Assembly (NCBI RefSeq): GCF_023913515.1
Contig: NZ_CP099391.1
Coordinates: 1,240,001 to 1,304,000, forward strand
Origin: Natronococcus sp. CG52
Lineage (GTDB): Archaea; Halobacteriota; Halobacteria; Halobacteriales; Natrialbaceae
Reading direction: 5' to 3'
DNA: 64,000 bases
This document shows positions 1-22,524 of the stretch, piece by piece. The position numbers were made by a program, and so were the translations under genes. The first letter of the stretch is position 1, and each line of letters starts with the position of its first letter. A model generated the notes under the pieces. It was given only the letters and a program-made list of their open reading frames with translations, was not told the origin of the DNA and ran no database searches.

Positions 1-326
1 TCGACTTCGGCGGCGACGAACTCGAGGACGCCGATCTCGAGCCGGTCTCTACGGAGCTTCGCGACCCCGACGACGAGTACGGCTGGTGGGAACTCGAGGG
101 CGGCCAGTACGTCTTCCAGCACAACGAGTTTCTCACCGATCTCGAGGAGCCGCTGTTGCTCCAGCCCACCAACGAACTGCTCGCCCGCGGCGGCTCGCAT
201 CCGACGGTGCAGGTGGCCTCACACCTGCCGCTGATGCCGCTGACCGTCACCGGTTCCGGACTCGAGATCAAGGAAAACGCGCGCGTCTCGACGCTCGTTC
301 CGATCGGTACCGGACGGTTCGAGTGA
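1..326 (+). CDS. dCTP deaminase/dUTPase-like protein, 3' end only
   Basis: The open frame enters from the left edge (first full codon at 3) and stops with TGA at 324-326, giving about 107 residues. The segment reads through LLLQPTNELLARGG and ends TLVPIGTGRFE, which resembles the C-terminal beta-barrel of the dCTP deaminase/dUTPase superfamily, enzymes that keep dUTP low and supply dUMP. The N-terminal half, with the most informative motifs, lies outside the window, so catalytic residues cannot be checked. Codon use is typical haloarchaeal. The family call is likely but partial. Confidence 0.6.
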   Translation, partial: DFGGDELEDADLEPVSTELRDPDDEYGWWELEGGQYVFQHNEFLTDLEEPLLLQPTNELLARGGSHPTVQVASHLPLMPLTVTGSGLEIKENARVSTLVPIGTGRFE

Positions 327-388
327 GCCGCCGATTTCGGTCCGTGTCGTCGAACCGGACTACAGCGGCAACGGTCCGCGGAGTTGTC

Positions 389-9007: not shown

Positions 9008-10828
9008 CTACTCGAGGACGACGATCACGTCGCCCATGTCGACGCTCTCGCCCTCCTCGACGGCGATCTGGGAGACCGTTCCGCCGCGGGAGGCGACGAT
9101 GTCGTTCTCCATCTTCATCGCCTCGAGGACGACGAGCACGTCGCCCGCCGCGACCTCGTCGCCGACCTCGACCTCGACGCCGAGGATCGTCCCCTGCATC
9201 TCGGCGTCTACCGTCTCGCCCTCCCCCTCGATCTCGGTCTCCTCGCTGGAGCCGCCCGCGGGTTCCGGCGGACTCGCGGCCTGACTGCCGCCGTCGCCGG
9301 TCGGGATCGCCGGCGCGCCGTGTTCCTCGAGATTGACCTCGAAGCGCTTCCCGTTGACCTCGACCGTGAACTCGCGTTCGACGGACTCCTCGTCGTCGGC
9401 GCCGCCGGTGTCGGCGGCACCCCACTGCTCCTGGGCGTCCGCGATGCGGCTCTCGTCGAGTTCCTCGTCTAAGTACTTCGTGGTGTGCGTGCTGGCGACG
9501 AACTCCTCGTCGGTGAGCATCAGCCGGTGGAACGGGATGATCGTTGGGATGCCCTCGATCTCGTACTCCCGGAGCGCGCGCAGCGATCGCTCGAGACACT
9601 CCTCGCGGTCCGCGCCCCAGACGACCAGCTTCGCGATCATCGAGTCGTAGTCCGTGACGAGTTCGTCACCCTGCTTCAGCGCGTCGTCGAGGCGGACGCC
9701 GATCCCGCCCGGCGGGTCGTAGGTCGTCAGCGTGCCGCCGGTCGCCGGCGCGAAGTCCTTGGCCGCGTTCTCGGCGTTGATCCGGAACTCGATCGCGTGG
9801 CCGTCGATCTCGACGTCCTCCTGATCGAAGTCGATCGTCTCGCCGGCCGCGATCCGGATCTGGCGCTTGACGATGTCGATACCCGTGATCTCCTCGGTGA
9901 CCGTGTGCTCGACCTGGATTCGGGTGTTGACCTCGAGGAAGAAGTAGTTCGCGTCCGGACTCAGCGGGCCGTCGCGGCCGGGTTCCTCCTCGACGAGGAA
10001 CTCGACGGTGCCGGCGTTGGTGTAGTCGGCGGCGGAGACGCCGCGACGTGCTGCCTCGCCGATCTTCTCGCGGAGTTCGTCCGTCAGCGCGGCCGACGGG
10101 CCCTCTTCGATGACCTTCTGGTGGCGGCGCTGGAGCGAACAGTCGCGCTCGCCGAGGTGGCGGACGTTGCCCTCCCCGTCGGCGAGGATCTGGACCTCGA
10201 TGTGCCGGGGCTGCTCGAGGTAGCGCTCGAGGTAGACCGAGTCGTTGTCGAAGTAGGCCTCGCCCTCGCGTTTGGCGCTCTCGAGTTGGTCTTCGACCTC
10301 GTTCTCGTCCCAGACGACCTTCATGCCGCGGCCGCCGCCGCCGCCTTCGGCCTTGATAGCGATCGGGTAGCCGTACTCCTCCCCGAACTGCTCGACCTCC
10401 TCGGGTTCGGTAACGGGGTCGGTCGTGCCTGGCACGATCGGGACCTCGGCCTCCTCCATGATCTTCCGGGCTTTCGTCTTCTCGCCCAGTGACTCCATCG
10501 CGCCGCTGGCGGGACCGATCCAGGTAATTCCCTCGGCCTTCTCGACCTTCGCGGCGAACTCGGCGTTCTCCGCGAGGAACCCGTACCCCGGATGGATCGC
10601 GTCGGCGTCGGCCTTGCGCGCGGCCTCGATGACTGCCTCGTGATCGAGATACGAGTCCGCCGCGCGCGCCGGACCGACGTTGTAAGCCTCGTCGGCGTAC
10701 CGGACGTGCCCCGAGTCCTTGTCCGCCTCGGAGTAGATAGCGACGGTTCCGACGTTCAACTCTTCGCACGCCCGCATCACGCGGACGGCGATTTCCCCGC
10801 GATTCGCCACGAGAACCTTCCTGAACAT
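9008..10828 (-). CDS. pccA: propionyl/acetyl-CoA carboxylase, biotin carboxylase + BCCP subunit
   Basis: This 606-residue protein carries an N-terminal biotin carboxylase ([20 protein letters not shown]), the ATP-grasp glycine loop [12 protein letters not shown] and the carboxylase signature [17 protein letters not shown] Pro/Ser/Glu-rich linker leads to a biotinyl domain with EAMKMEN, the biotinylated lysine near residue 572. It carboxylates biotin with ATP and bicarbonate. With PccB it converts propionyl-CoA to methylmalonyl-CoA, needed after the methylaspartate cycle and for odd-chain or Val/Ile breakdown. The start at 10828 matches the family; an in-frame start six codons earlier is less likely. 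The 148-nt gap to pccX holds inverted repeats. Confidence 0.93.
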
Positions 10829-10877
10829 TCCTGCTAAAACCGTCACGGGGCGCCTACCTTACTTTTTCGCAACGATT

Positions 10878-10909
10878 CCGTCAACTACAGAACGTATTTT
10901 GGTTGACGG
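10878..10909. promoter_or_regulatory. inverted repeat upstream of pccA
   Basis: CCGTCAAC at 10878-10885 is the exact reverse complement of GTTGACGG at 10902-10909, with a 16-nt AT-rich spacer. It lies 50-81 nt upstream of the pccA start and could be an operator or a leader hairpin. No regulator is identified. Confidence 0.4.
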
Positions 10910-10960
10910 TCCGAAGACGGACCGGGACGCTCGCGGCGTTGGCTGGCGATTTCCCCGGAT

Positions 10961-10980
10961 CTGACGCCTCGAGGCGTCAG
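10961..10980. promoter_or_regulatory. perfect 20-bp palindrome over the pccX stop codon
   Basis: The half-site CTGACGCCTC is followed directly by its exact reverse complement. The pccX stop codon (10977-10979 on the minus strand) lies inside it. No T-run follows on the minus strand, so a classical intrinsic terminator is not supported. A protein-binding dyad or an mRNA processing hairpin between pccX and pccA is possible. Confidence 0.45.
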
Positions 10981-11288
10981 AACCGATCCGTTCGGCCCGC
11001 GGCGCTCCAGGGATCGGTTGGCGCATCCCGCGGGACGCGGACGTGGCGCTGCTGCTGGGCGCGGATCCGGCCGCTGAACGCCCACCGCCGGTTGTCCCAG
11101 GTCTTTTCGTCTTCGGACGCCGCAGCCGCCGCCAGCGCCTGGTCGTGGAGGTGTGCACCGATGGCAGCGACGATCGCCGCCGCTTCCTCCGAGTCGGCGT
11201 CGTCCGGCAGTTCTAGATCGACGCCGGCCGGAAGGATACCGGCCAGCGGGTCGGCGTCGGCCGCGTTCGACTGGTGCTGTGCGGTCAT
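10977..11288 (-). CDS. pccX: small acyl-CoA carboxylase subunit (PccX/epsilon-like)
   Basis: This 103-residue protein lies between pccB and pccA, one base after the pccB stop, in the position of the small pccX subunit described for Haloferax mediterranei propionyl-CoA carboxylase. Its core, [20 protein letters not shown], then [16 protein letters not shown], matches the pattern of carboxylase epsilon subunits (a helix, then a W..xxRW/F..R element). It is presumed to stabilise the PccA-PccB complex. It is too small for catalysis. The identification is mainly from context plus the short pattern. Confidence 0.75.
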
Positions 11289-11289
11289 C

Positions 11290-12840
11290 TCAGAGCGGGA
11301 TGTTGCCGTGTTTCTTGTCCGGGTTCTCCTCGCGTTTCGTCTCGAGCATCTCGAGGTCGGCGATCAGCCGCGGCCGCGTTTCGGTGGGGAGGATGACGTC
11401 GTCGAGGAAGCCCTTGTCCGTCGCCGTGTAGGGGTTGGCGAACTCCTCGCGGTACTCCTCGATGAGTTCGTCCCGGAGCTCGTCGGGGTTCTCTGCCTCG
11501 GCGAGTTCCTGACGGTAGAGGATGTTGACCGCACCCTGCGGGCCCATGACGGCGATTTCGGCGGTCGGCCAGGCGTAGTTGACGTCGGCGCCGAGGTTCT
11601 TCGAGGCCATCACGCAGTAGGCGCCGCCGTAGGCCTTGCGCGTGATTACCGTCAGCAGCGGGACGGTCGCCTCCGAGTACGCGTAGAGAAGTTTGGCGCC
11701 GTGACGGATGATCCCGCGGTGTTCCTGGTCCGTTCCGGGCATGTAGCCGGGGACGTCGACGAAGGTGACGATCGGGATGTTAAACGAGTCACAGAAGCGG
11801 ATGAATCGCGAGCCCTTCATCGAGGCGTCGACGGTGAGCGTGCCGGCGTTCACGCGGGGCTGATTGGCGACGAGACCCACCGAGCGACCGTCCAGCCGGC
11901 CGAAACCGACGACGATGTTCTTCGCGAAGTTCTCGGCGACCTCGAAGAACGAACCCTCGTCGAGCACCGAGTCGATGACGTTCGTCATGTCGTACGGTTT
12001 CTGCGGACTGTCGGGAACGATCGACTCGAGCGCCTCGTCGCGGCGATCCGGATCGTCCCAGGGATCGACCCGCGGCGGATCCTCGACGTTGTTCTGCGGC
12101 AGGTACGACAGCAGACGCTTGATGTCGTCCAGAGCCTGCTCTTCGTCCTCACAGGCGAACTCGGCGACGCCGGTCTTGCCGGCGTGGGTCATCGCACCCC
12201 CGAGTTCCTCGTGAGTAACGTCCTCACCGGTGACGGTCTTCGTGACGCCGGGACCGGTGATGTACATGTGGCTCGTATCCTTCACCATGAAGATGAAGTC
12301 GGTGATCGACGGGGAGTAGACGGCCCCGCCCGCGCAGGGACCCATGATCCCCGAGATCTGAGGGACGACGCCGCTGGCTTCCTGATTACGCCGGAAGATC
12401 TCGGTAAACCCGGCGAGGCTCTTGACACCCTCCTGGATTCGCGCGCCCGCGGAGTCGTTGAGCCCGATAACCGGTGCGCCGACCTCCATCGCCATATCCA
12501 TCACCTTGCAGATCTTCTCGGCGAAGACCTCGCCCAGCGAGCCGCCGAAGACGGTGAAGTCGTGCGCGAAGACGAAGACGGTTCGACCGTTGACCTCGCC
12601 GTAGCCCGTGACGACGCCGTCGCCGGGAATCTGCTTCTCCTCCATCCCGAACTGGCTGGTCTGGTGGGTCCGGAGCTGATCGAACTCCGTAAACGTCCCG
12701 TCGTCGAGGAAGTAGTCGATCCGCTCGCGGGCCGTCATCTTCCCCTTGTCGTGTTGTTTTTCGATCCGTTCTTCGCCGCCGCCCATCCGGGCCTCCTCCC
12801 GGAGTTCCTCCAGTTCCTCGATCCGGTCCTCCATCGTCAT
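11290..12840 (-). CDS. pccB: propionyl/acetyl-CoA carboxylase, carboxyltransferase subunit
   Basis: This 516-residue protein begins [20 protein letters not shown] and contains [20 protein letters not shown], typical of acyl-CoA carboxylase beta subunits. The two crotonase-fold halves are visible, with the oxyanion regions around [11 protein letters not shown] (N half) and [16 protein letters not shown] (C half). It transfers carboxyl from biotin to propionyl-CoA or acetyl-CoA. A longer frame to 12924 was rejected because the added 28 residues are unlike the family. It is the first gene of pccB-pccX-pccA and diverges from the NSS transporter gene. Confidence 0.93.
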
Positions 12841-12961
12841 GCCGGGAACACCTCCGTCGGTCTCATACGCCGTTGTGTGACGACCAACAGGAAAAGAATT
12901 CCGTAACCCGCCACAATTAGTCATGACCCAATTACGCGGGGACGAGAAGCACTACGAAAAG

Positions 12962-12969
12962 TTATATAT
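12962..12969 (+). promoter_or_regulatory. TATA box for the NSS transporter gene
   Basis: TTATATAT lies 25-32 nt upstream of the ATG at 12994, giving a leaderless or near-leaderless transcript. The small dyad CCTC/GAGG around a TTTTAAC core lies between box and start. Confidence 0.6.
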
Positions 12970-12993
12970 GACTCCTCTTTTAACGAGGGGGAT

Positions 12994-14388
12994 ATGGTAC
13001 AACGTGAAACATGGGCCACGAGAACAGGGTTTATTCTCGCGGCCGTCGGGAGTGCAGTGGGGCTTGGTAACATCTGGCGATTCCCGTTCGTTACGGGAGA
13101 GGGCGGCGGTGCAGCCTTCCTGCTGGTCTACCTCCTGTTCGTCGCGCTAGTTGGCTTTCCGGCGATCCTCGCCGAGTTCGTCGTCGGTCGAAAGACCGAG
13201 CGAAATCCGGTAGGTGCACTGAAGGAGTACGGCGGTGACGCCTGGAAGTACGTCGGGGGAATCTTCATCGTCACCGGTTTCGTCATCCTCTCGTACTACA
13301 GCGTCGTCGCCGGCTGGTTCATTCGATACTTCCTCGAGGGGTTCACCGACAGCTACGCGGGACACCTCGCCGGATACGAGGGCGCCGCCGCGGAGGCTGG
13401 CCAGCCCGAGACGGTCATGATGTTCCTCGACTTCGCGACGGGGCTCGAAGCGTTCGTGTTCCACACCATCTTCATGGCGATCACCGTCGGGATCGTCGCC
13501 CTCGGTATCCGCCGCGGGATCGAATTCGCGGTGAAATTGATGGTTCCGGCAATCATCGTCCTGATGGTCGTCCTGGCGGTCTGGGCCGCGACGCTTCCGG
13601 AGGCTGGGACGGCGTACAGCTACTACCTGTCACCGGACTTCGGCGTCGTTGCCGAGAACTGGGCCAACATCCTCCCCGCCGCGGCAGGACAGGCGTTCTT
13701 CACCCTGTCGCTGGGGATGGGCGTGATGATCACGTACGCCTCCTACCTCGGTGAGGACCGCAACCTCACCCAGGACGCGGCGCTGATCATCGGCTTCGAC
13801 ACCGGTATCGCGTTCCTCACCGGTCTCGTCGTCTTCCCGATGATCTTCGCCGCCGGTGCGGATCCGGGGACCGAGGGGGCCGGTGCGATCTTCTTCAGTC
13901 TCACCGAAGCGTTCGCGACGATTCCGGGCGGCCGCTGGCTGGGTATCCTGTTCTTCGGAACCGTCGCCATCGCCGCGCTCTCGAGTGCGATTTCGCTGCT
14001 CGAGGTCGTCACCTCCTACGTCATCGACGAGAAAGGGATCGAGCGGTGGAAGGCCGCACTCGGGATGGGTGGTATAATCTACCTGCTCGGCGCGCCGGTC
14101 ACGTACGACATGATCTTCCTCGACCTGCTCGACCTGTTCGCGGACGCGATCCTGCTCGTCTTCGGTGCGTTGATGCTGGCGATCCTCGTCGGCTGGGTCG
14201 CACCGCAGGTCGCTATCGATGAACTCGAGAAAGGGATAGGTAGTCTCGACGGCCTCGGCCAGGCGTGGATCTGGGCGATCCGCGTGCCGATCATCATCGT
14301 GCTGGTCGTCTCGCTATACCTCGGCATCGTCGAGTACGTCGAATTCCTCACCGGACCGTTCGCGGAGTGGACGGACGGGAACCTGTAA
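12994..14388 (+). CDS. neurotransmitter:sodium symporter (SNF/NSS) family transporter
   Basis: This 464-residue polytopic membrane protein opens with RETWATRTGFILAAVGSAVGLGNIWRFPFV, the NSS helix 1 signature that contributes to the two Na+ sites and the substrate site. Later segments such as GMGVMITYASYLGEDRNL match NSS helix 6-7, and about 11-12 hydrophobic helices follow in order. It imports an amino acid or related solute with Na+. The substrate is not evident. It lies between pccB and the LivJ-like gene, which hints at amino acid uptake feeding propionyl-CoA; this is an inference. Confidence 0.92.
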   Translation: MVQRETWATRTGFILAAVGSAVGLGNIWRFPFVTGEGGGAAFLLVYLLFVALVGFPAILAEFVVGRKTERNPVGALKEYGGDAWKYVGGIFIVTGFVILSYYSVVAGWFIRYFLEGFTDSYAGHLAGYEGAAAEAGQPETVMMFLDFATGLEAFVFHTIFMAITVGIVALGIRRGIEFAVKLMVPAIIVLMVVLAVWAATLPEAGTAYSYYLSPDFGVVAENWANILPAAAGQAFFTLSLGMGVMITYASYLGEDRNLTQDAALIIGFDTGIAFLTGLVVFPMIFAAGADPGTEGAGAIFFSLTEAFATIPGGRWLGILFFGTVAIAALSSAISLLEVVTSYVIDEKGIERWKAALGMGGIIYLLGAPVTYDMIFLDLLDLFADAILLVFGALMLAILVGWVAPQVAIDELEKGIGSLDGLGQAWIWAIRVPIIIVLVVSLYLGIVEYVEFLTGPFAEWTDGNL

Positions 14389-14652
14389 CGGGCGCAACGT
14401 CGGTTTCGTTTTTGCGGCTCCGATCGACGGATCGTCCGCGGAGTCACCGGCGCGGTCCCCTTCCACGAACCGCCGGCGGGCGTCGCTATCGGCGCTCCGC
14501 TGAGACCGAACACGCGGTTTAAACGCCGCTTCCCTTCTCGAGAGCGGCCGTCCGCCCGTCGAACCGGCGACCCAAGTTCCAGTTCGGAGGCAAACGCGGT
14601 AACTGAGGCATTTTCTTTCCCGGTGAAGGCCGCGTTATCATCACACAAACTC

Positions 14653-14659
14653 TATATAT
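14653..14659 (+). promoter_or_regulatory. TATA box for the LivJ-like gene
   Basis: TATATAT lies 22-28 nt before the ATG at 14681, which supports that start over the upstream GTG at 14666. Confidence 0.55.
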
Positions 14660-14680
14660 GGTTGCGTGCGATCATATGCC

Positions 14681-15967
14681 ATGGGTAGGGAACTCAATCG
14701 ACGAAGGGTGCTCAGTGGAATCGGTACTGCTGGGGCGCTCGGTATCGCCGGCTGTATCGGTGACGAAGGTGAAATCGAAGGGGAAGGGCCCGATGTCCTG
14801 AACATTATCGGATATCCGGAAAGCGGCATCCAGATCTTCCGAGACTACTACTCGGAGTTCGGCACTGGCTCGGCCGAGATCATCGTTCCGGACGGCCTGC
14901 TCGACGAGGCGCTGCCGGGTGAGGTCGGCGAGGACATGAGCGACGTCACGGGGACTGCGCCGTCCTCGGCGGGCCCCAACGAGCAAGCGTTCGAGGAGAT
15001 GTACCAGGACGAGTACGGCGAGACGGCCGGCGTGTTCAACTCGCACACGTTCGACGCCGTCGCGGTGATGGTCCTCGCGAACATCGCCGCGGGCGACAAC
15101 GATGGCGAAGCCCTCCGGGATCAGGTGCGCAACGTCGCTAACCCGGACGAGGGGGACGAGTACGGACCGGACGAACTCGAGGAAGCCGCCGAGGCAGTCG
15201 CGGACGGCGAGATGATCAACTATCAGGGCGCCTCGAGCGCGGTCGACTTCGACGAGGTCGGCGACCCAGCGGAGGCAGCGTACGACATCTGGACGTTCAC
15301 GGAGGATGGAACGGAGACTGAAGACACCGTCAACTTCGAGGGCGAAGGTCCCGGTGGCGACGCAGCTGACGAAGTCCAGGGTGGAACCGATCGGGACGAG
15401 GTGAGCGTCGCCATCCTGCTCCCGCAGACGGGCGATCTCGGTGAACTCGGGAGCCTGATGATCCAGGCCGGCCAGCTCGCGGCCCAGGAGTTCGGGGGCG
15501 TCGTCGACATCGATCTGCAGGTTGAAGATACCGCGACCGACGAGGACACGACCCTGAGCGCGGGGGAGTCGCTCATCGACGCCGGCTATCCCGCGATCGT
15601 CGGAGCGGCGTCGTCCGGCAACTCCGTTCCGCTCAGCGGCCTCACCAGCAGCGCCAACGTCGTCCAGTGTTCGCCGGCGAGCACCGCGCTGAGCCTCTCC
15701 GAAATCGACGACGATGGGTACTTCTTCCGGACCGCACCCAGCGACCTCCTGCAGGGTCAGGTGATGGCGGAAGTCGCCGCCACTCGACTCGAGGGTGCAA
15801 CGACGTCCACACTGTACGTCAACAACGACTACGGTCAACAGCTCTCCGAACAGTACACGGAGATGTTCGAAGACGAACAGGACGGCGAGACCTACAACCA
15901 GGTCTCGTTCGAACCGGAACAGGGGTCGTACACGAGCGAACTCGAGTCGGCGCTAGCTGACAACTGA
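14681..15967 (+). CDS. LivJ-type ABC substrate-binding lipoprotein with swapped halves (apparent circular permutation)
   Basis: This 428-residue protein has a Tat-type lipoprotein signal (RRRVLSGIG..., lipobox IAGC, Cys25). Normal LivJ/Peripla_BP_6 proteins start with the strand VSVAILLPQTGDLG and end with the FDAVAVM helix region. Here residues 37-210 contain the usual C-terminal half (PDVLNIIGYPESG, then NSHTFDAVAVMVLANIAAG). A Gly/Asp linker at about 211-240 follows, and the usual N-terminal half comes last (VSVAILLPQTGDLG at 241, FFRTAPSDLLQGQVMAEVAA, STLYVNNDYG). The protein ends in TSELESALADN, exactly where a normal protein would run into PDVLNI. The reading frame is intact. It likely delivers a branched-chain amino acid or similar ligand to the convergent livHMGF products. 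Confidence 0.85.
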   Translation: MGRELNRRRVLSGIGTAGALGIAGCIGDEGEIEGEGPDVLNIIGYPESGIQIFRDYYSEFGTGSAEIIVPDGLLDEALPGEVGEDMSDVTGTAPSSAGPNEQAFEEMYQDEYGETAGVFNSHTFDAVAVMVLANIAAGDNDGEALRDQVRNVANPDEGDEYGPDELEEAAEAVADGEMINYQGASSAVDFDEVGDPAEAAYDIWTFTEDGTETEDTVNFEGEGPGGDAADEVQGGTDRDEVSVAILLPQTGDLGELGSLMIQAGQLAAQEFGGVVDIDLQVEDTATDEDTTLSAGESLIDAGYPAIVGAASSGNSVPLSGLTSSANVVQCSPASTALSLSEIDDDGYFFRTAPSDLLQGQVMAEVAATRLEGATTSTLYVNNDYGQQLSEQYTEMFEDEQDGETYNQVSFEPEQGSYTSELESALADN

Positions 15968-15972
15968 TCGAG

Positions 15973-15990
15973 CCGTCTCGACGGTTTTTT
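15973..15990 (+). terminator. hairpin plus T-run after the LivJ-like gene
   Basis: CCGTC (15973-15977) pairs with GACGG (15980-15984) and is followed by six T. It starts 5 nt after the stop codon and fits a transcription terminator for the plus-strand gene. Confidence 0.55.
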
Positions 15991-16136
15991 CGGTGCACAA
16001 CGGGTCTCGAGCGACGTCTCCGATCCGGTTGGTGCGGTCGGCGGCTGGAGAGTGAGACCGGACTGACGCGCTCGCGAATTCCGTCGCCGGAGCGGTCGTC
16101 GATCGCCGACGGTGGGTGAAAAAGCAGCGCCGTGGA

Positions 16137-16841
16137 TTAGCCGCCGAGGAACTGCTGACGAACTTCGTCGTCCTCCAACAGCGCTTCGCCCGTGTTCTCG
16201 TAGCGGTTCTTCCCTTGCACGAGGACGTAGCCGCGGTCACATCGGCGCAGCGCCTCCTTGGCGTTTTGCTCCACGACCAGAACCGCGGTACCGCTCTCGT
16301 TAATCGAGTCGACGTGGTCGAACATCTCGGCGACGAGATCGGGTGCGAGCCCCGCACTCGGCTCGTCGAGCAACAGCAGATCCGGATCGAGCATCAGCGC
16401 CCGTCCCATCGCGACCATCTGTTGCTGGCCGCCGCTCATCGTTCCGGCTTTCTGGTCGCGGCGCTCCTGGAGGACGGGAAAGTGGTCGAAGACCGTCTCG
16501 AGCGCCTCTTCGGGCACCTCGTCGAGGATGTACGCGCCCATCTCGAGGTTCTCTTGCACCGTCAGTGACGGGAAGACGTTGTCGTTCTGGGGAACGTACC
16601 CGATCCCCTCGTGGATGACATCTTCGGGGGGGCTGTCGGTGATGTCTCGGCTCTGGAACTCGACTACACCGTCCATGTAGGTCGTCAGTCCGAAGACGGA
16701 CTTCATGGCCGTCGACTTGCCCGCGCCGTTCGGACCGACGATCACGACGTACTCGCCCTCGGCAACGTCGAGAGTGACGTCGTAAAGGATCTGCAGGTCG
16801 CCGTACCCCGCGTCGAGGTCGCGAACTTCGAGCATAGACAT
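16137..16841 (-). CDS. livF: ABC transporter ATP-binding protein, LivF type
   Basis: This 234-residue ATPase has Walker A (GPNGAGKSTAMKS, about residue 38), the signature GTMSGGQQQMVAMGRALM and Walker B (PDLLLLDEPSAGLAP). Its length and the short GYG opening match LivF of branched-chain amino acid importers. It ends the livH-livM-livG-livF series and starts exactly where livG ends. A second Met two codons in (16835) is an equally good start. It powers uptake with LivG. The substrate is inferred from family only. Confidence 0.9.
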   Translation of the reverse strand: MSMLEVRDLDAGYGDLQILYDVTLDVAEGEYVVIVGPNGAGKSTAMKSVFGLTTYMDGVVEFQSRDITDSPPEDVIHEGIGYVPQNDNVFPSLTVQENLEMGAYILDEVPEEALETVFDHFPVLQERRDQKAGTMSGGQQQMVAMGRALMLDPDLLLLDEPSAGLAPDLVAEMFDHVDSINESGTAVLVVEQNAKEALRRCDRGYVLVQGKNRYENTGEALLEDDEVRQQFLGG

Positions 16842-17678
16842 CTACACCTCACCTCCAAGGTAGGCCTCGATAACCTGCTCGTTCGAGGTGATCTCCGCCG
16901 GTCTCCCCTCGGCGAGGACCGATCCCTGGTGCATCACGATGACGTGCTCGCAGTTGTCCATGATGACGTCCATGTCGTGTTCGACGATCAGGAAGGTGTA
17001 GCCCTCCTCGCGCAAGCCGTGGATGTGCTCGAGGAGCTTCTTCTCGAGCGTCGGATTGACGCCCGCAAACGGCTCGTCGAGCAGCAGCATCTCCGGGTCG
17101 GTCATCAGCGCCCGGGCCATCTCCAGGAGCTTGCGTTGCCCGCCGGAGAGGGTTCCGGCTTTCACCTCGGCGAGGTGTTCGATCTCGAAGAACTCGAGGG
17201 TATCCCACACCCGTTCCAGAAGTTCGCGCTCTTGCTGTTCGACTCCCTGTCTGACGACGGGCGTCACGGAACGCCAGAGCGCTTCTCCCTCCTGGTGTTT
17301 CGCCGGAAGCATCAGGTTTTCCAGGACGGTCATGTTCGGCATCTCGCGGGCGATCTGGAACGTCCGAACGACTCCGTAGTCGACGACCTCGTAGGGAGAC
17401 AGCCCGGTGATGTCTTGCCCTCGGAACGTGACCGTGCCCGCGTCCGGTCGGTGAGCGCCGGTGATGCAGTTGAACGTCGTCGACTTGCCGGCCCCGTTCG
17501 GGCCGATCAGACCGGTCATCGACCCCTCCTCGACCTGGAACGTCGCACCGTCCACGGCAGTGATACCGCCGAAGCGTTTGACGAGGCCGCGTACCGTGAG
17601 CGCGACGTTCTCGACTCGATCCGAATCCGGCTCTTCGACGGACGTAGGCGTCGACTGATCGCTCGCTGCGTCGCTCAC
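16842..17678 (-). CDS. livG: ABC transporter ATP-binding protein, LivG type
   Basis: This 278-residue ATPase starts with about 28 acidic residues, then LTVRGLVKRFGGITAVDGATF. Walker A is GPNGAGKSTTFNCITG, with the signature GTLSGGQRKLLEMARALM and Walker B PEMLLLDEPFAGVNP. LivG members share the FGG..A.D segment and a C-terminal ITSNEQVIEAYLG, both present. It overlaps livM by 4 nt (ATGA type), so the two are translationally coupled. It partners LivF as a heterodimeric ATPase. Confidence 0.9.
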   Translation of the reverse strand: MSDAASDQSTPTSVEEPDSDRVENVALTVRGLVKRFGGITAVDGATFQVEEGSMTGLIGPNGAGKSTTFNCITGAHRPDAGTVTFRGQDITGLSPYEVVDYGVVRTFQIAREMPNMTVLENLMLPAKHQEGEALWRSVTPVVRQGVEQQERELLERVWDTLEFFEIEHLAEVKAGTLSGGQRKLLEMARALMTDPEMLLLDEPFAGVNPTLEKKLLEHIHGLREEGYTFLIVEHDMDVIMDNCEHVIVMHQGSVLAEGRPAEITSNEQVIEAYLGGEV

Positions 17679-18985
17679 GTCGACTCACCTCCGTCTTCGA
17701 CGGCGACGCCATCTGACGGACGTCTCGTAAGTGGGATCGCCGCCGCCGTCTCCTCGCGATGGCCGAGTAACCCTTCCGGCCGTCGTTGCATCAGTACGAT
17801 GAGCGTGATCCCCATAATAACGAACTGGAGGGTCAGCAGGTTATCGAACGTGTACCGCAGCAGCGGTATCGGATCGGCCGCCAGCAGGGCTCCGGACCCT
17901 TCCGCGAACGTGTTCGGGGCCGCTTCGACGTCGACCCACGAGTAGATCAGTCGACGGATGTACCGCGGCCCCTCGAAGAGGACGGCCACGAACAGCCCGG
18001 ATCCGAGGATGCTTCCCGTGTTCGATCCCGCGCCGCCGATGATCAGTGCGATCCAGATGAAAAACGTAACGTGCGGGCGGAACGCGTCTGGCGTAACCCC
18101 AGTCCGGCGGAATCGCCACAGGATGCCCGCCAGCCCCATAAGCGCACACCCGAGGACGAACACCTTGATCTTGAACGTGTTCGTGTCCTTCCCGAGTGAC
18201 TGTGCCGCCTCCTCGTCTTCGCGAATCGCCTTGAGTACGCGCCCGAACGGCGATCGGCTGGTTCGCTGGATGAGCCAGTAGAAGCCGACGAGAAACAGGA
18301 GGAGGACCAGCGAATACGCGAGCGCTCGCGCCTGTCGCGGCCCGAATCCGAACCACCGATTCGTCGCGTCGACGAAGGTCGTGAACGCGGGGAGATCGAA
18401 GATGAAATTCATCGGATCCGAGTAGTTCGCGATGATTCCCCGACCGCCGCCCGTTCCGAGCTCCGTCCCGAAGATCGTAAAGCTCTCTAACGGGCCGGAC
18501 TTGAGAGCGAGGCGCACGATCTCGGAGAACGCGATGGTGACGATCGCGAGGTAGTCAGCGCGCAGTCGCAACGCCGGAAGCGCGACGATGAGTCCCGCGA
18601 TAGCGGCCGCGAGAACACCGCCGGCCACGGCGATCGGCATCGGAAGGCCGAGGCCCGGATACTGGGCCGCACCCGTCGTCTCGACGGGTTTGGCGAGCAT
18701 CATCGTCACGTACAACCCGATCGCCATGAACCCGGCGACCCCGATGTTGAACAGTCCGGTGTAGCCCCAGTGTAAGTTCAACGCGAGGGCGACCATGCCG
18801 TAGACGGCGATGAGGTACGTCAACTGTCTGAGCGTGTTGACGATACCGTCCATCGAGTATCCGAGCGCCAGCCCGATCGCCGCGTACACGACGTAGATGG
18901 CGCCGATGACTGCCAGGATCTTCACCGCGTCGTACTCCCAGTACTCGTCGAACCGATCTCGTACGTTGATTTCGTTCGTGCTCAT
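17675..18985 (-). CDS. livM: branched-chain amino acid ABC permease, LivM type
   Basis: This 436-residue membrane protein has about 10 helices. The motif region LNLHWGYTGLFNIGVAGFMAIG and the EAA-like cytosolic loop RSPFGRVLKAIREDEEAAQSLGKD mark LivM. Extra hydrophilic stretches at the N-terminus and near the C-terminus (NTFAEGSGALLAAD) make it longer than many homologues. It overlaps livH by 4 nt and livG by 4 nt. It forms the membrane channel with LivH. Confidence 0.9.
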   Translation of the reverse strand: MSTNEINVRDRFDEYWEYDAVKILAVIGAIYVVYAAIGLALGYSMDGIVNTLRQLTYLIAVYGMVALALNLHWGYTGLFNIGVAGFMAIGLYVTMMLAKPVETTGAAQYPGLGLPMPIAVAGGVLAAAIAGLIVALPALRLRADYLAIVTIAFSEIVRLALKSGPLESFTIFGTELGTGGGRGIIANYSDPMNFIFDLPAFTTFVDATNRWFGFGPRQARALAYSLVLLLFLVGFYWLIQRTSRSPFGRVLKAIREDEEAAQSLGKDTNTFKIKVFVLGCALMGLAGILWRFRRTGVTPDAFRPHVTFFIWIALIIGGAGSNTGSILGSGLFVAVLFEGPRYIRRLIYSWVDVEAAPNTFAEGSGALLAADPIPLLRYTFDNLLTLQFVIMGITLIVLMQRRPEGLLGHREETAAAIPLTRRPSDGVAVEDGGEST

Positions 18986-20115
18986 GCTGTCGTCTTCCCT
19001 CCGAACAGTCCCGATGGTTTGATCAGCAGTACGACGATCATGATGAGGAACGCGGTGATCGTGGTGAAGTCACCGCCCGGTAACCAGATCAGGGAGAGGC
19101 GCATCGCCAGTCCGATGACGATTCCGCCGACGATGGCGCCGTAAACCGAACCGATACCGCCGAGGATCACCGCGGAGAAGATAAGCAGCAGTAACAGCCA
19201 GCCGAACTGATAACTGATCGTTCCCGTCCAGAGCACCATGAGGTACCCCGCGACGCCCGCCAGGCCGCCGCCGATGATCCACGTCCAGCGAATGACGCGT
19301 TCGGTCGGAATGCCGGTCACCTGCGCGAGGTCCTTGTTGTCGGACATCGCGCGCATCGCTTTCCCCAACTTCGTTTTCTGGAGCAGGAGGTGGACACCGA
19401 TCATGAGGCTACCCGCCGCCACCAGCAGTGTGAAGTCGTGCATGTCGACGTTGACGGTTCCGTCGACCAACAGGAAATCGAACTCCGGCAGTCCGAAGGT
19501 GCTCGTCGTTCCGCGCGTACGCGACGAGTAGACGAACACGAGGAGGTACCGGAGCGCGAACGCGACCCCGATACTCGCGATCAACAGCGGAATCCCGCCA
19601 GAACCGCGCATCGGCTTGTACACGTACCGATCGATAAGCAGGACGAGTGCGGCGGTGGCGACGCCGGTGAACACGAGGCCGATCAGAATCGCCAGCGGCG
19701 TCGACCAGATCGAAATGCCGATCTCAGCGCCCCCGACCCCGCGCTGCGGGGCGACGAGGGCGAGGTGTCCGAAACTCACCTCCTCCCCGAACATGAGCGT
19801 TCGTCCGGCGATGAGATACGTTATACCCCAGCCGAGAAACGCCCCCGTCGAGATGTAGTCCCCGTGGGCGAAATTCGCGAAGTTCAGGATGCTGTACGTC
19901 ATCGAGAGGCCGATGCCGGCCAGTCCGATGATCAGACCGTACATCAACCCTTGCCAGGCGTACCTGCCGATCCGGGAGATGCTGTATCTCCCCGTCACAA
20001 CCCCGTGGACGAGATCCACGGCCAGTACCAGGGTCACGAATACTGCGAGTACGAGCATAATCTGCTCGAGAGTGAGCCCCCGCCCTCGATTTACCACCTC
20101 ATCGACAGTCGCCAT
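18982..20115 (-). CDS. livH: branched-chain amino acid ABC permease, LivH type
   Basis: This 377-residue membrane protein has 8-9 helices. The opening hydrophobic block is followed by GLIIGLAGIGLSMTYSILNFANFAHGD, a LivH hallmark, and by the loop TKLGKAMRAMSDNKDLAQVTGI, the ATPase-contact region. It is the first gene of livHMGF. The promoter region upstream (20116-20283) holds a perfect 8-bp inverted repeat. The operon is convergent with the LivJ-like gene at 14681-15967, not in the same transcript. Confidence 0.9.
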   Translation of the reverse strand: MATVDEVVNRGRGLTLEQIMLVLAVFVTLVLAVDLVHGVVTGRYSISRIGRYAWQGLMYGLIIGLAGIGLSMTYSILNFANFAHGDYISTGAFLGWGITYLIAGRTLMFGEEVSFGHLALVAPQRGVGGAEIGISIWSTPLAILIGLVFTGVATAALVLLIDRYVYKPMRGSGGIPLLIASIGVAFALRYLLVFVYSSRTRGTTSTFGLPEFDFLLVDGTVNVDMHDFTLLVAAGSLMIGVHLLLQKTKLGKAMRAMSDNKDLAQVTGIPTERVIRWTWIIGGGLAGVAGYLMVLWTGTISYQFGWLLLLLIFSAVILGGIGSVYGAIVGGIVIGLAMRLSLIWLPGGDFTTITAFLIMIVVLLIKPSGLFGGKTTA

Positions 20116-20153
20116 TGGTACCCCTCCACATAGTCACCTACTTTTTCGGACCC

Positions 20154-20199
20154 CCTGTTATATGTTCCGGTGTGACACGGTGTTGTGACCCATAACAGG
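20154..20199. promoter_or_regulatory. inverted repeat upstream of livH
   Basis: CCTGTTAT (20154-20161) and ATAACAGG (20192-20199) are exact reverse complements separated by 30 nt. Between them lie GTGTGACAC and GTTGTGAC, two further related half-sites. The unit is 39-84 nt upstream of the livH start. It looks like an operator for a dimeric regulator, though none is encoded next to it. Confidence 0.45.
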
Positions 20200-20283
20200 T
20201 GCGTTCGGCCGGATCCGTTTCACACGCCGTCCGATTAATCCGCCACTAGCGAGCGACGGTTGGAGACCGGGACCCCGGTCTCG

Positions 20284-21006
20284 TTAGGCCTCGCCGTAAA
20301 CGGGCACGGCTGCACCGCTCGTCACTGCCGCCCCGTCGCTACAGAGAAACGCCAGCACGTCCGCGATCTCGCGCGGTTCGACCCACGAGTCGTGATCGGC
20401 GTCGGGCATCATCTCACGGTTCATCGGCGTGTCGATCACGCTGGGCATCACGCAGTTCGCCCGGACGACGCCCTCGTTCTCCTCGGCCAGCGTCTCCGTC
20501 AGCAGTCGGATTCCGGCCTTCGTGATCCGGTAGGGACCGTCACCCTCCCCTCCCTCGAGCGACGACCGAGCGCTGATGCTGACGATCGATCCTTCGGACT
20601 GCTGGAGGTGGGGCAGCGCGCGCTTCGAGGCCAGGAAGGCCGTCTTCAGGTTCACGTCGACCAGCAGGTCGAACTCCTCGAGGTCGGTCTCCTCGATCGG
20701 ATCGCCGCCGCGCCAGGTGCCGGCGATGTTACAGAGGTGATCGATCCGACCGTGGTCGTCGACGAGATCGTCGACGAGGCGCGCGACGTCGTCCTCGTCG
20801 GTCAGGTCGGCCTCGTAAAAGTGGGTTCCGGCGTCGGTCTCGAGCAAACTGCCCTCGTCGTCGGGTTCGACCACGTCGACGGCACAGACGGTCGCACCGG
20901 CCTCGCGAAAGCGGTCGACGGTCGCGCTTCCCAGCGCACCGCTCGCACCCGTGATCACGGCGACGGTTCCGTCGAAGTCGACGTCGAAGGCTGTCTTCGG
21001 TGACAT
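20284..21006 (-). CDS. short-chain dehydrogenase/reductase (SDR) family oxidoreductase
   Basis: This 240-residue classical SDR has the NAD(P) motif VAVITGASGALGSATVDRF (TGxxxGxG), CNIAGTWRGG in place of NNAG, the Ser of VSISARSSLEGG and the catalytic pair in PYRITKAGIRL (YxxxK). Tyr and Lys are intact. Start 21006 places the Rossmann motif near residue 15; an upstream frame start at 21057 adds an unlikely leader. The cofactor and alcohol/ketone substrate are not determinable. It is a single gene in a 168-nt spacing from livH. Confidence 0.87.
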   Translation of the reverse strand: MSPKTAFDVDFDGTVAVITGASGALGSATVDRFREAGATVCAVDVVEPDDEGSLLETDAGTHFYEADLTDEDDVARLVDDLVDDHGRIDHLCNIAGTWRGGDPIEETDLEEFDLLVDVNLKTAFLASKRALPHLQQSEGSIVSISARSSLEGGEGDGPYRITKAGIRLLTETLAEENEGVVRANCVMPSVIDTPMNREMMPDADHDSWVEPREIADVLAFLCSDGAAVTSGAAVPVYGEA

Positions 21007-21102
21007 ACCGTCCCCTCCAACGGCAAGACAGATCAATCGTCGGGGCGCTGGCGGCAACGTCTGCGGAGCCGGGAGTGAGAGGGATCCGGCGAAGAAGAAC
21101 CG

Positions 21103-21603
21103 TCAGGAGGAGATCGGCGGAAGCGAGGCTCGCTCGAACCAGAAGCGCTCGATCGCGCTCGCGATCCGCTCGAATGCGGCGGGGTCGGACGGCTTCGTGA
21201 GGTAGGCGTTTGCGGCGCGGTCGTAACTCTCGTTGACGTCCTCGCTGGCGTTCGAGTTCGTCAGCACGAGTACCGGTAAGTGAGCCAGTTCGCCGTCCGC
21301 TCGAACCGCCTCGAGAAACTCGAATCCGTCCATTCCGGGAAGTTCCAGGTTGAGAAGCACGAGGTCCGGAACCGGATCGGTCTCGTCGACGCGCTGCTCG
21401 AGGAACTCCAGTGCCGCCTCGCCGTCCGGCACCACGTCGATCGTGGTTTCCGTCGAAACCGCCCCGAAGGCCTCACAGACGAGTTGCGCGTCGTCGGAGT
21501 CACTCTCGACGAGTAACATCCGTACGCGGTCTTCGGCCGCGGCGTCGTATCGGTACTCCTCCAGGACCGAGGACCCCGAGGTCAAAACATATTGACTTTT
21601 CAT
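21103..21603 (-). CDS. response-regulator receiver domain protein lacking the phospho-acceptor Asp
   Basis: This 166-residue single receiver domain has the order LLVESDSDDAQLV, DLVLLNLELPGMDGFEFLEAVR, VLVLTNSNASED (T) and NAYLTKPSD (K). In active receivers the third strand reads LLDLxLPG. Here the codon is AAC, so Asn replaces the phosphorylated Asp (Asn85, or Asn57 if the ATG at 21519 is used). One of the two acidic residues of the first loop is also changed (ES instead of ED). Thr and Lys are kept. It is probably phosphorylation-independent. No histidine kinase is adjacent. Confidence 0.82.
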   Translation of the reverse strand: MKSQYVLTSGSSVLEEYRYDAAAEDRVRMLLVESDSDDAQLVCEAFGAVSTETTIDVVPDGEAALEFLEQRVDETDPVPDLVLLNLELPGMDGFEFLEAVRADGELAHLPVLVLTNSNASEDVNESYDRAANAYLTKPSDPAAFERIASAIERFWFERASLPPISS

Positions 21604-21855
21604 ACTATACTGAAACTATGACTGTTTACTTATCGTGACTATATAAGTCTGTTTGCCGACAGGCGACGATTACTGATCACTCCTATATGGCGAATAGTTA
21701 TTCGTGGGGCGCTGAGTCTCCCGTTTATTACGACTACACGGACAATCTAAATCATATCGGAACGGTATCATATGTGCGGAGTCATCCCGGTCGGCAGCTG
21801 TGACGGAATCGGCAGACCACAGGCTAAAGCCGTCCCCCGTCGTTTCTCCGTTCGA

Positions 21856-22524
21856 ATGCGTCTGATCGCTCATCGCGGCTTCGCCGCGACGGCTCCGGAG
21901 AACACGATCGCTGCCGTTCAGTCCGCGGCAGCCCAGGCCGACGCCGTCGAGTTCGACGTGAGACGTTGCGGATCGGGCGAACTCGTCGTGATCCACGACG
22001 AGACGATCGATCGGGTCACCGGGAGCGTCGGCACGGTCGCCGACACCGCACTCGAGGAGCTGCGGACGCTCTCGGTGTTCGAGTCGGACGAGCGAATCCC
22101 GACGCTCGAGGAGATGCTCGAGGCGCTCCCGCCACACGTCGAGGTCAACCTCGAGATGAAAGAGCTCGGTATCGCCGGGGACATCCTCGAGGCCGTCACG
22201 GCCGTCGAGAATCGGGTCGTCGTCACCTCCTTCCTGCTCCCCGAACTGCGATCGATCCGGGAACACGACCGTGACCAGCCGACGGGACTGCTCGTCAGCC
22301 GGCGACTCGAGTCTCCGGTCACCACCGCCGTCGAACTCGATTGCGACGTCATCGGTGCGAACTACTGGCGCTGTCTGACGACGCGTCTCGTCCCCCGGGC
22401 GAAGGCGGTGGGACTCGAGATACACGCCTGGGCGATCGAGCGATGGACGACCGCGCGAGTGCTCGGACTCCGCGGCGTCGACTGTATCTCCGCGGATCGT
22501 CCGATTCAGCTCGTCGGCCGCTGA
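21856..22524 (+). CDS. glycerophosphodiester phosphodiesterase family protein
   Basis: This 222-residue GDPD starts MRLIAHRGFAATAPENTIAA, with the catalytic His-Arg and the metal-binding Glu. It has EFDVRRCGSGELVVIHDETIDR (the E-D pair and second His) and EVNLEMKE (third metal Glu). The family hydrolyses glycerophosphodiesters to glycerol-3-phosphate and an alcohol. The product could feed glycerol-phosphate metabolism, but no glp operon is adjacent. The upstream in-frame ATG at 21772 was rejected because it adds 28 residues ahead of the conserved HRG motif. Confidence 0.9.
   Translation: MRLIAHRGFAATAPENTIAAVQSAAAQADAVEFDVRRCGSGELVVIHDETIDRVTGSVGTVADTALEELRTLSVFESDERIPTLEEMLEALPPHVEVNLEMKELGIAGDILEAVTAVENRVVVTSFLLPELRSIREHDRDQPTGLLVSRRLESPVTTAVELDCDVIGANYWRCLTTRLVPRAKAVGLEIHAWAIERWTTARVLGLRGVDCISADRPIQLVGR

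Follow-up and report, generated by a model that had tools for sequence, protein, structure and literature searches.

The stretch of DNA analysed here (64,000 nucleotides, called the window in the following) encodes a protein that we read, with a probability of roughly 0.85, as a functional, lipid-anchored and circularly permuted type I binding protein (SBP) of the LivJ/HAAT (Peripla_BP_6) type. Its ligands, which it would pass to the adjacent LivFGMH importer, are most likely amino acids. The arrangement is apparently not a one-off; it is widespread and seems to be recurrent.

Half order and predicted fold

According to a preliminary description of the locus, the protein carries its two halves in swapped order, in one continuous frame with a single signal peptide and with a linker between them. 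Profile searches, comparison with relatives and structure prediction agreed with each of these points. The protein of 428 amino acids is encoded by one open frame from the ATG at 14681 to the stop at 15965-15967 (window 14681-15967), and a Tat-type RR motif (RRRVLSG) and the lipobox Cys25 were both found in the translation. The parts of the gene and the neighbouring transporter genes are listed with their evidence; A1 is an alignment of 31 permuted proteins.

14650..14659, + strand: TATA-like box CTCTATATAT, ~26 nt 5' of the ATG (read from the sequence)
14681..14755, + strand: Tat/lipoprotein signal peptide, ending at lipobox Cys25 (RRRVLSG...GIAGC; translation)
14756..14788, + strand: acidic/Gly spacer of 11 residues, residues 26-36 (translation, alignment A1)
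14789..15337, + strand: permuted first half, corresponding to the C-terminal half of the family, PDVLNIIGYPESG ... EDTVNF, residues 37-219 (PF13458 191-312; 3td9 205-362)
15338..15397, + strand: joining linker EGEGPGGDAADEVQGGTDRD, residues 220-239, from native C-terminus to native N-terminus (A1, pLDDT, dN/dS)
15398..15967, + strand: permuted second half, corresponding to the N-terminal half of the family, EVSVAILLPQTGDLG ... ESALADN, residues 240-428, and stop (PF13458 1-188; 3ipc, 1z15)
16137..16841, - strand: livF ATPase, convergent with the permuted SBP gene (ORF; synteny in permuted loci)
16842..17678, - strand: livG ATPase (ORF, synteny)
17675..18985, - strand: livM permease (ORF, synteny)
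18982..20115, - strand: livH permease (ORF, synteny)

The position of the TATA-like box relative to the ATG would be compatible with a leaderless archaeal transcript.

The canonical N-then-C order of the Peripla_BP_6/HAAT family is not present in the window protein. Its first half alone gave 25.7 bits to positions 191-312 of the PF13458 profile, and its second half gave 70 bits to positions 1-188; the profile regions are thus found in reverse order. As the whole protein reached 94.6 bits at a gathering score of 31.7, the family cut-off was passed. Because of the deviating order it is described here as a circularly permuted relative and not as an ordinary member of the family. The ordinary order was seen in two paralogues encoded by this 4.74-Mb genome and in many relatives. 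NCBIfam yielded a partial match below threshold, and the best matches of the protein were Leu/Ile/Val-type proteins. The previously noted end of the protein (..ESALADN and stop), exactly before the expected PDVLNI, was confirmed, and PDVLNI opens the mature part after the 11-residue spacer.

With A1 as input, AlphaFold2 predicted one ordered fold (pLDDT 86.5, pTM 0.85) with a linker pLDDT > 80. The order of the elements in the model equals that of the model of an unpermuted relative after rotation by a single cut. An ordered linker of ~20 residues would connect the native C-terminus with the native N-terminus, the new ends would lie in the loop before strand PDVLNI of the C-terminal lobe, and the chain would still close as one bilobed fold. 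The cut before PDVLNI matches approximately residue 193 of LIVBP; taking ~residues 122-249 as the C-lobe of LIVBP, we assume that it falls in the C-lobe, in a loop before a strand and away from the cleft. As a consequence, lobe 2 and not lobe 1 would carry the lipid tether.

For the N-half, the alignment covered residues 1-193 of 3ipc and 1z15, and LivJ-type structures were matched with 2.0-2.3 A rmsd over ~185 residues; the C-half was aligned to residues 205-362 of 3td9. In the PDB searches with Foldseek and VIA essentially the N-half alone was matched. These searches align sequentially and cannot show a permuted match, so that the closure of the whole fold rests on the AlphaFold2 model. The structure 5er3 (aligned 8..377 at 4.6 A) was considered as a permuted relative and dropped, since pseudo-symmetric type I lobes give such matches. 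Conserved residues were found in both halves of A1, together with the linker consensus FEGxxPxGGxxADxSPGGxGR. SSG, T311, Y360 and D47 are invariant in A1; alignments with 3td9 were made, and we take these residues to be equivalent to the ligand-site positions of LIVBP.

Distribution, selection and transporter context

Among 40 relatives, a colinear full-length match with 50-88% identity was detected in ten other genomes, and unpermuted homologues were matched in two pieces with reversed query order. A search for other haloarchaea with the same arrangement yielded a full-length colinear permuted match in ~158 of the 392 genomes sampled from the same taxonomic order (~40%); a permuted copy was defined as a best match < 1e-90, and the number is approximate as it was counted by hand. 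In 393 genomes drawn from the phylum, all full-length permuted matches belonged to this order. Plasmid records were matched in two pieces. Relatives with 45-88% identity are colinear from end to end, hence neither chance nor misassembly explains the swapped halves. An artefact of assembly or annotation, by which two ordinary genes were merged into one, has practically no probability left in view of the identical arrangement in ~158 independently assembled genomes, some of them nearly closed, and of the length of the window contig (3.97 Mb).

Compared with an orthologue of 88% identity, dN/dS was 0.157 for the whole protein, 0.094 for the C-half, 0.241 for the N-half and 0.055, on few sites, for the linker. 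The permuted gene is under purifying selection. Signal peptide and lipobox are kept in most permuted relatives. A decaying pseudogene, or a two-domain protein with independently acting halves (for instance through domain swapping between molecules), is very improbable: the frame is open, dN/dS is low and invariant residues occur in both halves, even though a few copies elsewhere are disrupted (L118 in genome G179 and L139 in genome G374). Against separate action of the halves, AlphaFold2 gave one confident monomeric fold with high confidence across the linker, and each half alone would split lobe 2.

Some deviating copies were observed. In L118 (~9119-10569) the N-half of the permuted gene is split by ~1.45 kb, possibly an insertion element. 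The permuted copy of L139 (G374:C13:22797-23488) is apparently frameshifted or truncated; other members of the genus have intact copies. Tandem permuted SBP genes were found in L066, L072 and L120, with ~54% and 49-52% identity to the window protein. For the second copy of these pairs no lipobox was recognised, and in L120 both genes are located beside one livFGMH set.

The livHMGF genes reported earlier next to the permuted gene are present in the window and also in permuted loci elsewhere. All permuted genes whose neighbourhood was read converge on livF-livG-livM-livH; L119 is the sole locus among them where livF was undetected. As SBP gene and livFGMH lie on opposite strands, they do not form one operon. 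In the genus of the window the locus is composed of pccB-NSS-SBP-livFGMH-SDR-RR (window 9008-22524), and the SBP at this position is permuted in two genomes (G000 and G008) and unpermuted in three (G001, G005 and G007). The livH and livM genes of the unpermuted loci L104, L107 and L113 are just 44-53% identical to those of the window, whereas the flanking pccB and SDR are 82-97% identical. Diverged permeases between conserved flanks indicate that SBP and permease set were exchanged as one cassette, and this exchange is the strongest argument for a role of the permuted SBP in the adjacent transporter.

The genome of the window contains a second liv cassette with an unpermuted SBP (L046 8957-9018; G000:C1 ~1812960), in which livH, livM and livG are present. 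Unlike in the related cassette L109, livF was undetected between livG and the SBP gene; this cassette may borrow LivF.

Number of origins and mutational route

For the SBP tree both halves were put back into canonical order. The permuted proteins were divided into clade A with the window protein, clade B (G028/G065 type), clade C (genus g45 type) and the lone L133, and unpermuted proteins stand between clades A, B and C. The LivHMGF tree, based on independent data, separated the same three clades, with L039 and L190 as separate single entries. Trees of the N-half and of the C-half each placed clade B beside the same unpermuted proteins. The AU test rejected one common clade of all permuted proteins, with p=0.024 on the SBP data and p=2.7e-5 on the permease data. 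The linkers of the clades (A, ADxSPGGxGR; B, ELSDEDxNATAxxPVGVDSF; C, IPQPEPxGSGSDSGR) are alike in length and dissimilar in sequence.

Judged from these sequence comparisons, the permutation is likely to be recurrent in haloarchaeal LivJ-type proteins. Tentatively, with slightly less than even confidence, we propose at least three independent permutations at the same cut point and one at a second cut; the moved tether or altered lobe dynamics might be selectively useful. A single ancient haloarchaeal permutation, with later reversions by a second duplication and trimming, would explain the scatter in the tree as well, and we consider it rather unlikely. A single origin predicts the cut point that is common to all permuted clades within a residue or two, and for this reason recurrence is regarded as likely only. 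In favour of reversions, a second permutation (described below) did take place, and it restored a native-like N-C junction. In the permease tree 5 gains and 1 gain with 5 losses were nearly equal in cost under the chosen root; this root is arbitrary, so the permease tree does not decide the direction. On the other hand, the SBP tree rooted with unpermuted outgroups needs 4 gains, compared to 1 gain and 9 reversions for a single origin. The linkers of different clades look unrelated. Furthermore, both half trees group clade B with one and the same set of unpermuted proteins, and in the permease tree it stands with the unpermuted cassettes that correspond to them.

The second permutation has the order signal-N(37-191)-C-linker-N(1-39), and its linker is of the A type. 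It was found in three genomes of genus g53:

L135 / L173 (G317:C7:20395-21738), - strand: second-permutation copy
L174 (G713): second-permutation copy
L175 (G717): second-permutation copy

These proteins are 90-98% identical. Their cut is located between the first helix and the second strand of lobe 1, and the gene faces livFGMH in convergent orientation. In the SBP tree as well as in the permease tree, the second type branches within clade A, next to A-type permuted proteins from the same family. The N-half is divided between the two ends of the protein in complementary pieces, which suggests an N-C-linker-N intermediate that may have been trimmed differently by lineage.

An origin by tandem fusion and loss of the outer parts had already been proposed. 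This fits with the composition of the linker, the tandem copies and the variant of the N-C-linker-N type. The linker begins like the C-terminus of an ordinary protein (ETxDTxxFE..) and continues like the last part of an ordinary post-lipobox spacer (..GGxGRE[VI]xVGIL). Probably, a partial tandem duplication with in-frame fusion would have led to N-C-linker-N, and the first N-half would have been trimmed afterwards. Tandem permuted copies, together with tandem ordinary copies in Nocardiopsis, indicate that duplication was available as a step.

In Nocardiopsis listeri (L035 5794-8658) two ordinary LivJ-type genes are arranged in tandem, a layout from which a permuted fusion could arise. Nocardiopsis was the sole genus found in a contig scan with two ordinary SBP genes in tandem and a convergent livF; it serves as an illustration only and not as the ancestor.

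Significance and comparison with known systems

Natural circular permutations are usually viewed as ancient one-off relations between distant folds. In the family described here, a single genus contains one binding protein in ordinary, permuted and re-permuted form. A different genus has either the ordinary or the permuted form at the same chromosomal locus, each together with its own transporter set. The state has seemingly changed several times, and the family can be regarded as a natural experiment on the origin and persistence of circular permutations. If the recurrent origin is true, the forms within single genera capture permutation in progress. As the forms coexist, one can directly test the route by fusion and trimming, what the linker does and what a shifted lipoprotein tether brings about. 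Sequential profile models (Pfam, NCBIfam) score permuted proteins as two fragments; thus, more of them may be hidden.

In our search, which covered little of the subscription literature, no report on permuted LivJ-type or haloarchaeal SBPs, on this cut point or on recurrence was found. Permuted type I SBPs are already known from TpMglB-2; this family, the cut point and the recurrence are apparently new. With LivJ/LivK-type HAAT SBPs (3td9, 3ipc, 4n0q, 1z15) the window protein shares homologous halves, livHMGF neighbours and lipoprotein export, and like Peripla_BP_6/HAAT SBPs in general it is linked to LivH/M/G/F transporter genes. It differs by the swapped halves, termini predicted in lobe 2, a linker of ~20 residues and a presumably relocated tether.

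TpMglB-2 (Tp0684) of Treponema pallidum, a type I binding protein of solved structure, is lipid-anchored and naturally carries a circular permutation; it belongs to the sugar-binding MglB family of spirochaetes and Gram-positives (PMC4990184). Its first three N-lobe strands are located at the C-terminus, the order of the C-lobe is kept, and a fourth hinge crossover is added; the permuted part is just 13% identical to its counterpart (PMC4990184). The protein still binds glucose, a 'Type Ic / Cluster Bc' was proposed for it, and tethering was likewise suggested by the authors as a reason (PMC4990184). Like this 'Cluster Bc' protein, the window protein is a circularly permuted type I binding protein, as indicated by HMM order and AlphaFold2. 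In contrast, it is cut in lobe 2 and not in the N-lobe sheet, it does not belong to the MglB sequence family, and its halves are ~40-60% identical to ordinary relatives. Furthermore, a single haloarchaeal genus has ordinary as well as permuted forms at the same locus. A relationship by circular permutation was also described between glycine-betaine-binding and molybdate-binding proteins and CysB (CPSARST family; PMC2395249). That case is a deep structural relation with < 24% identity in other SBP classes (PMC2395249), whereas the rearrangement reported here took place within one family.
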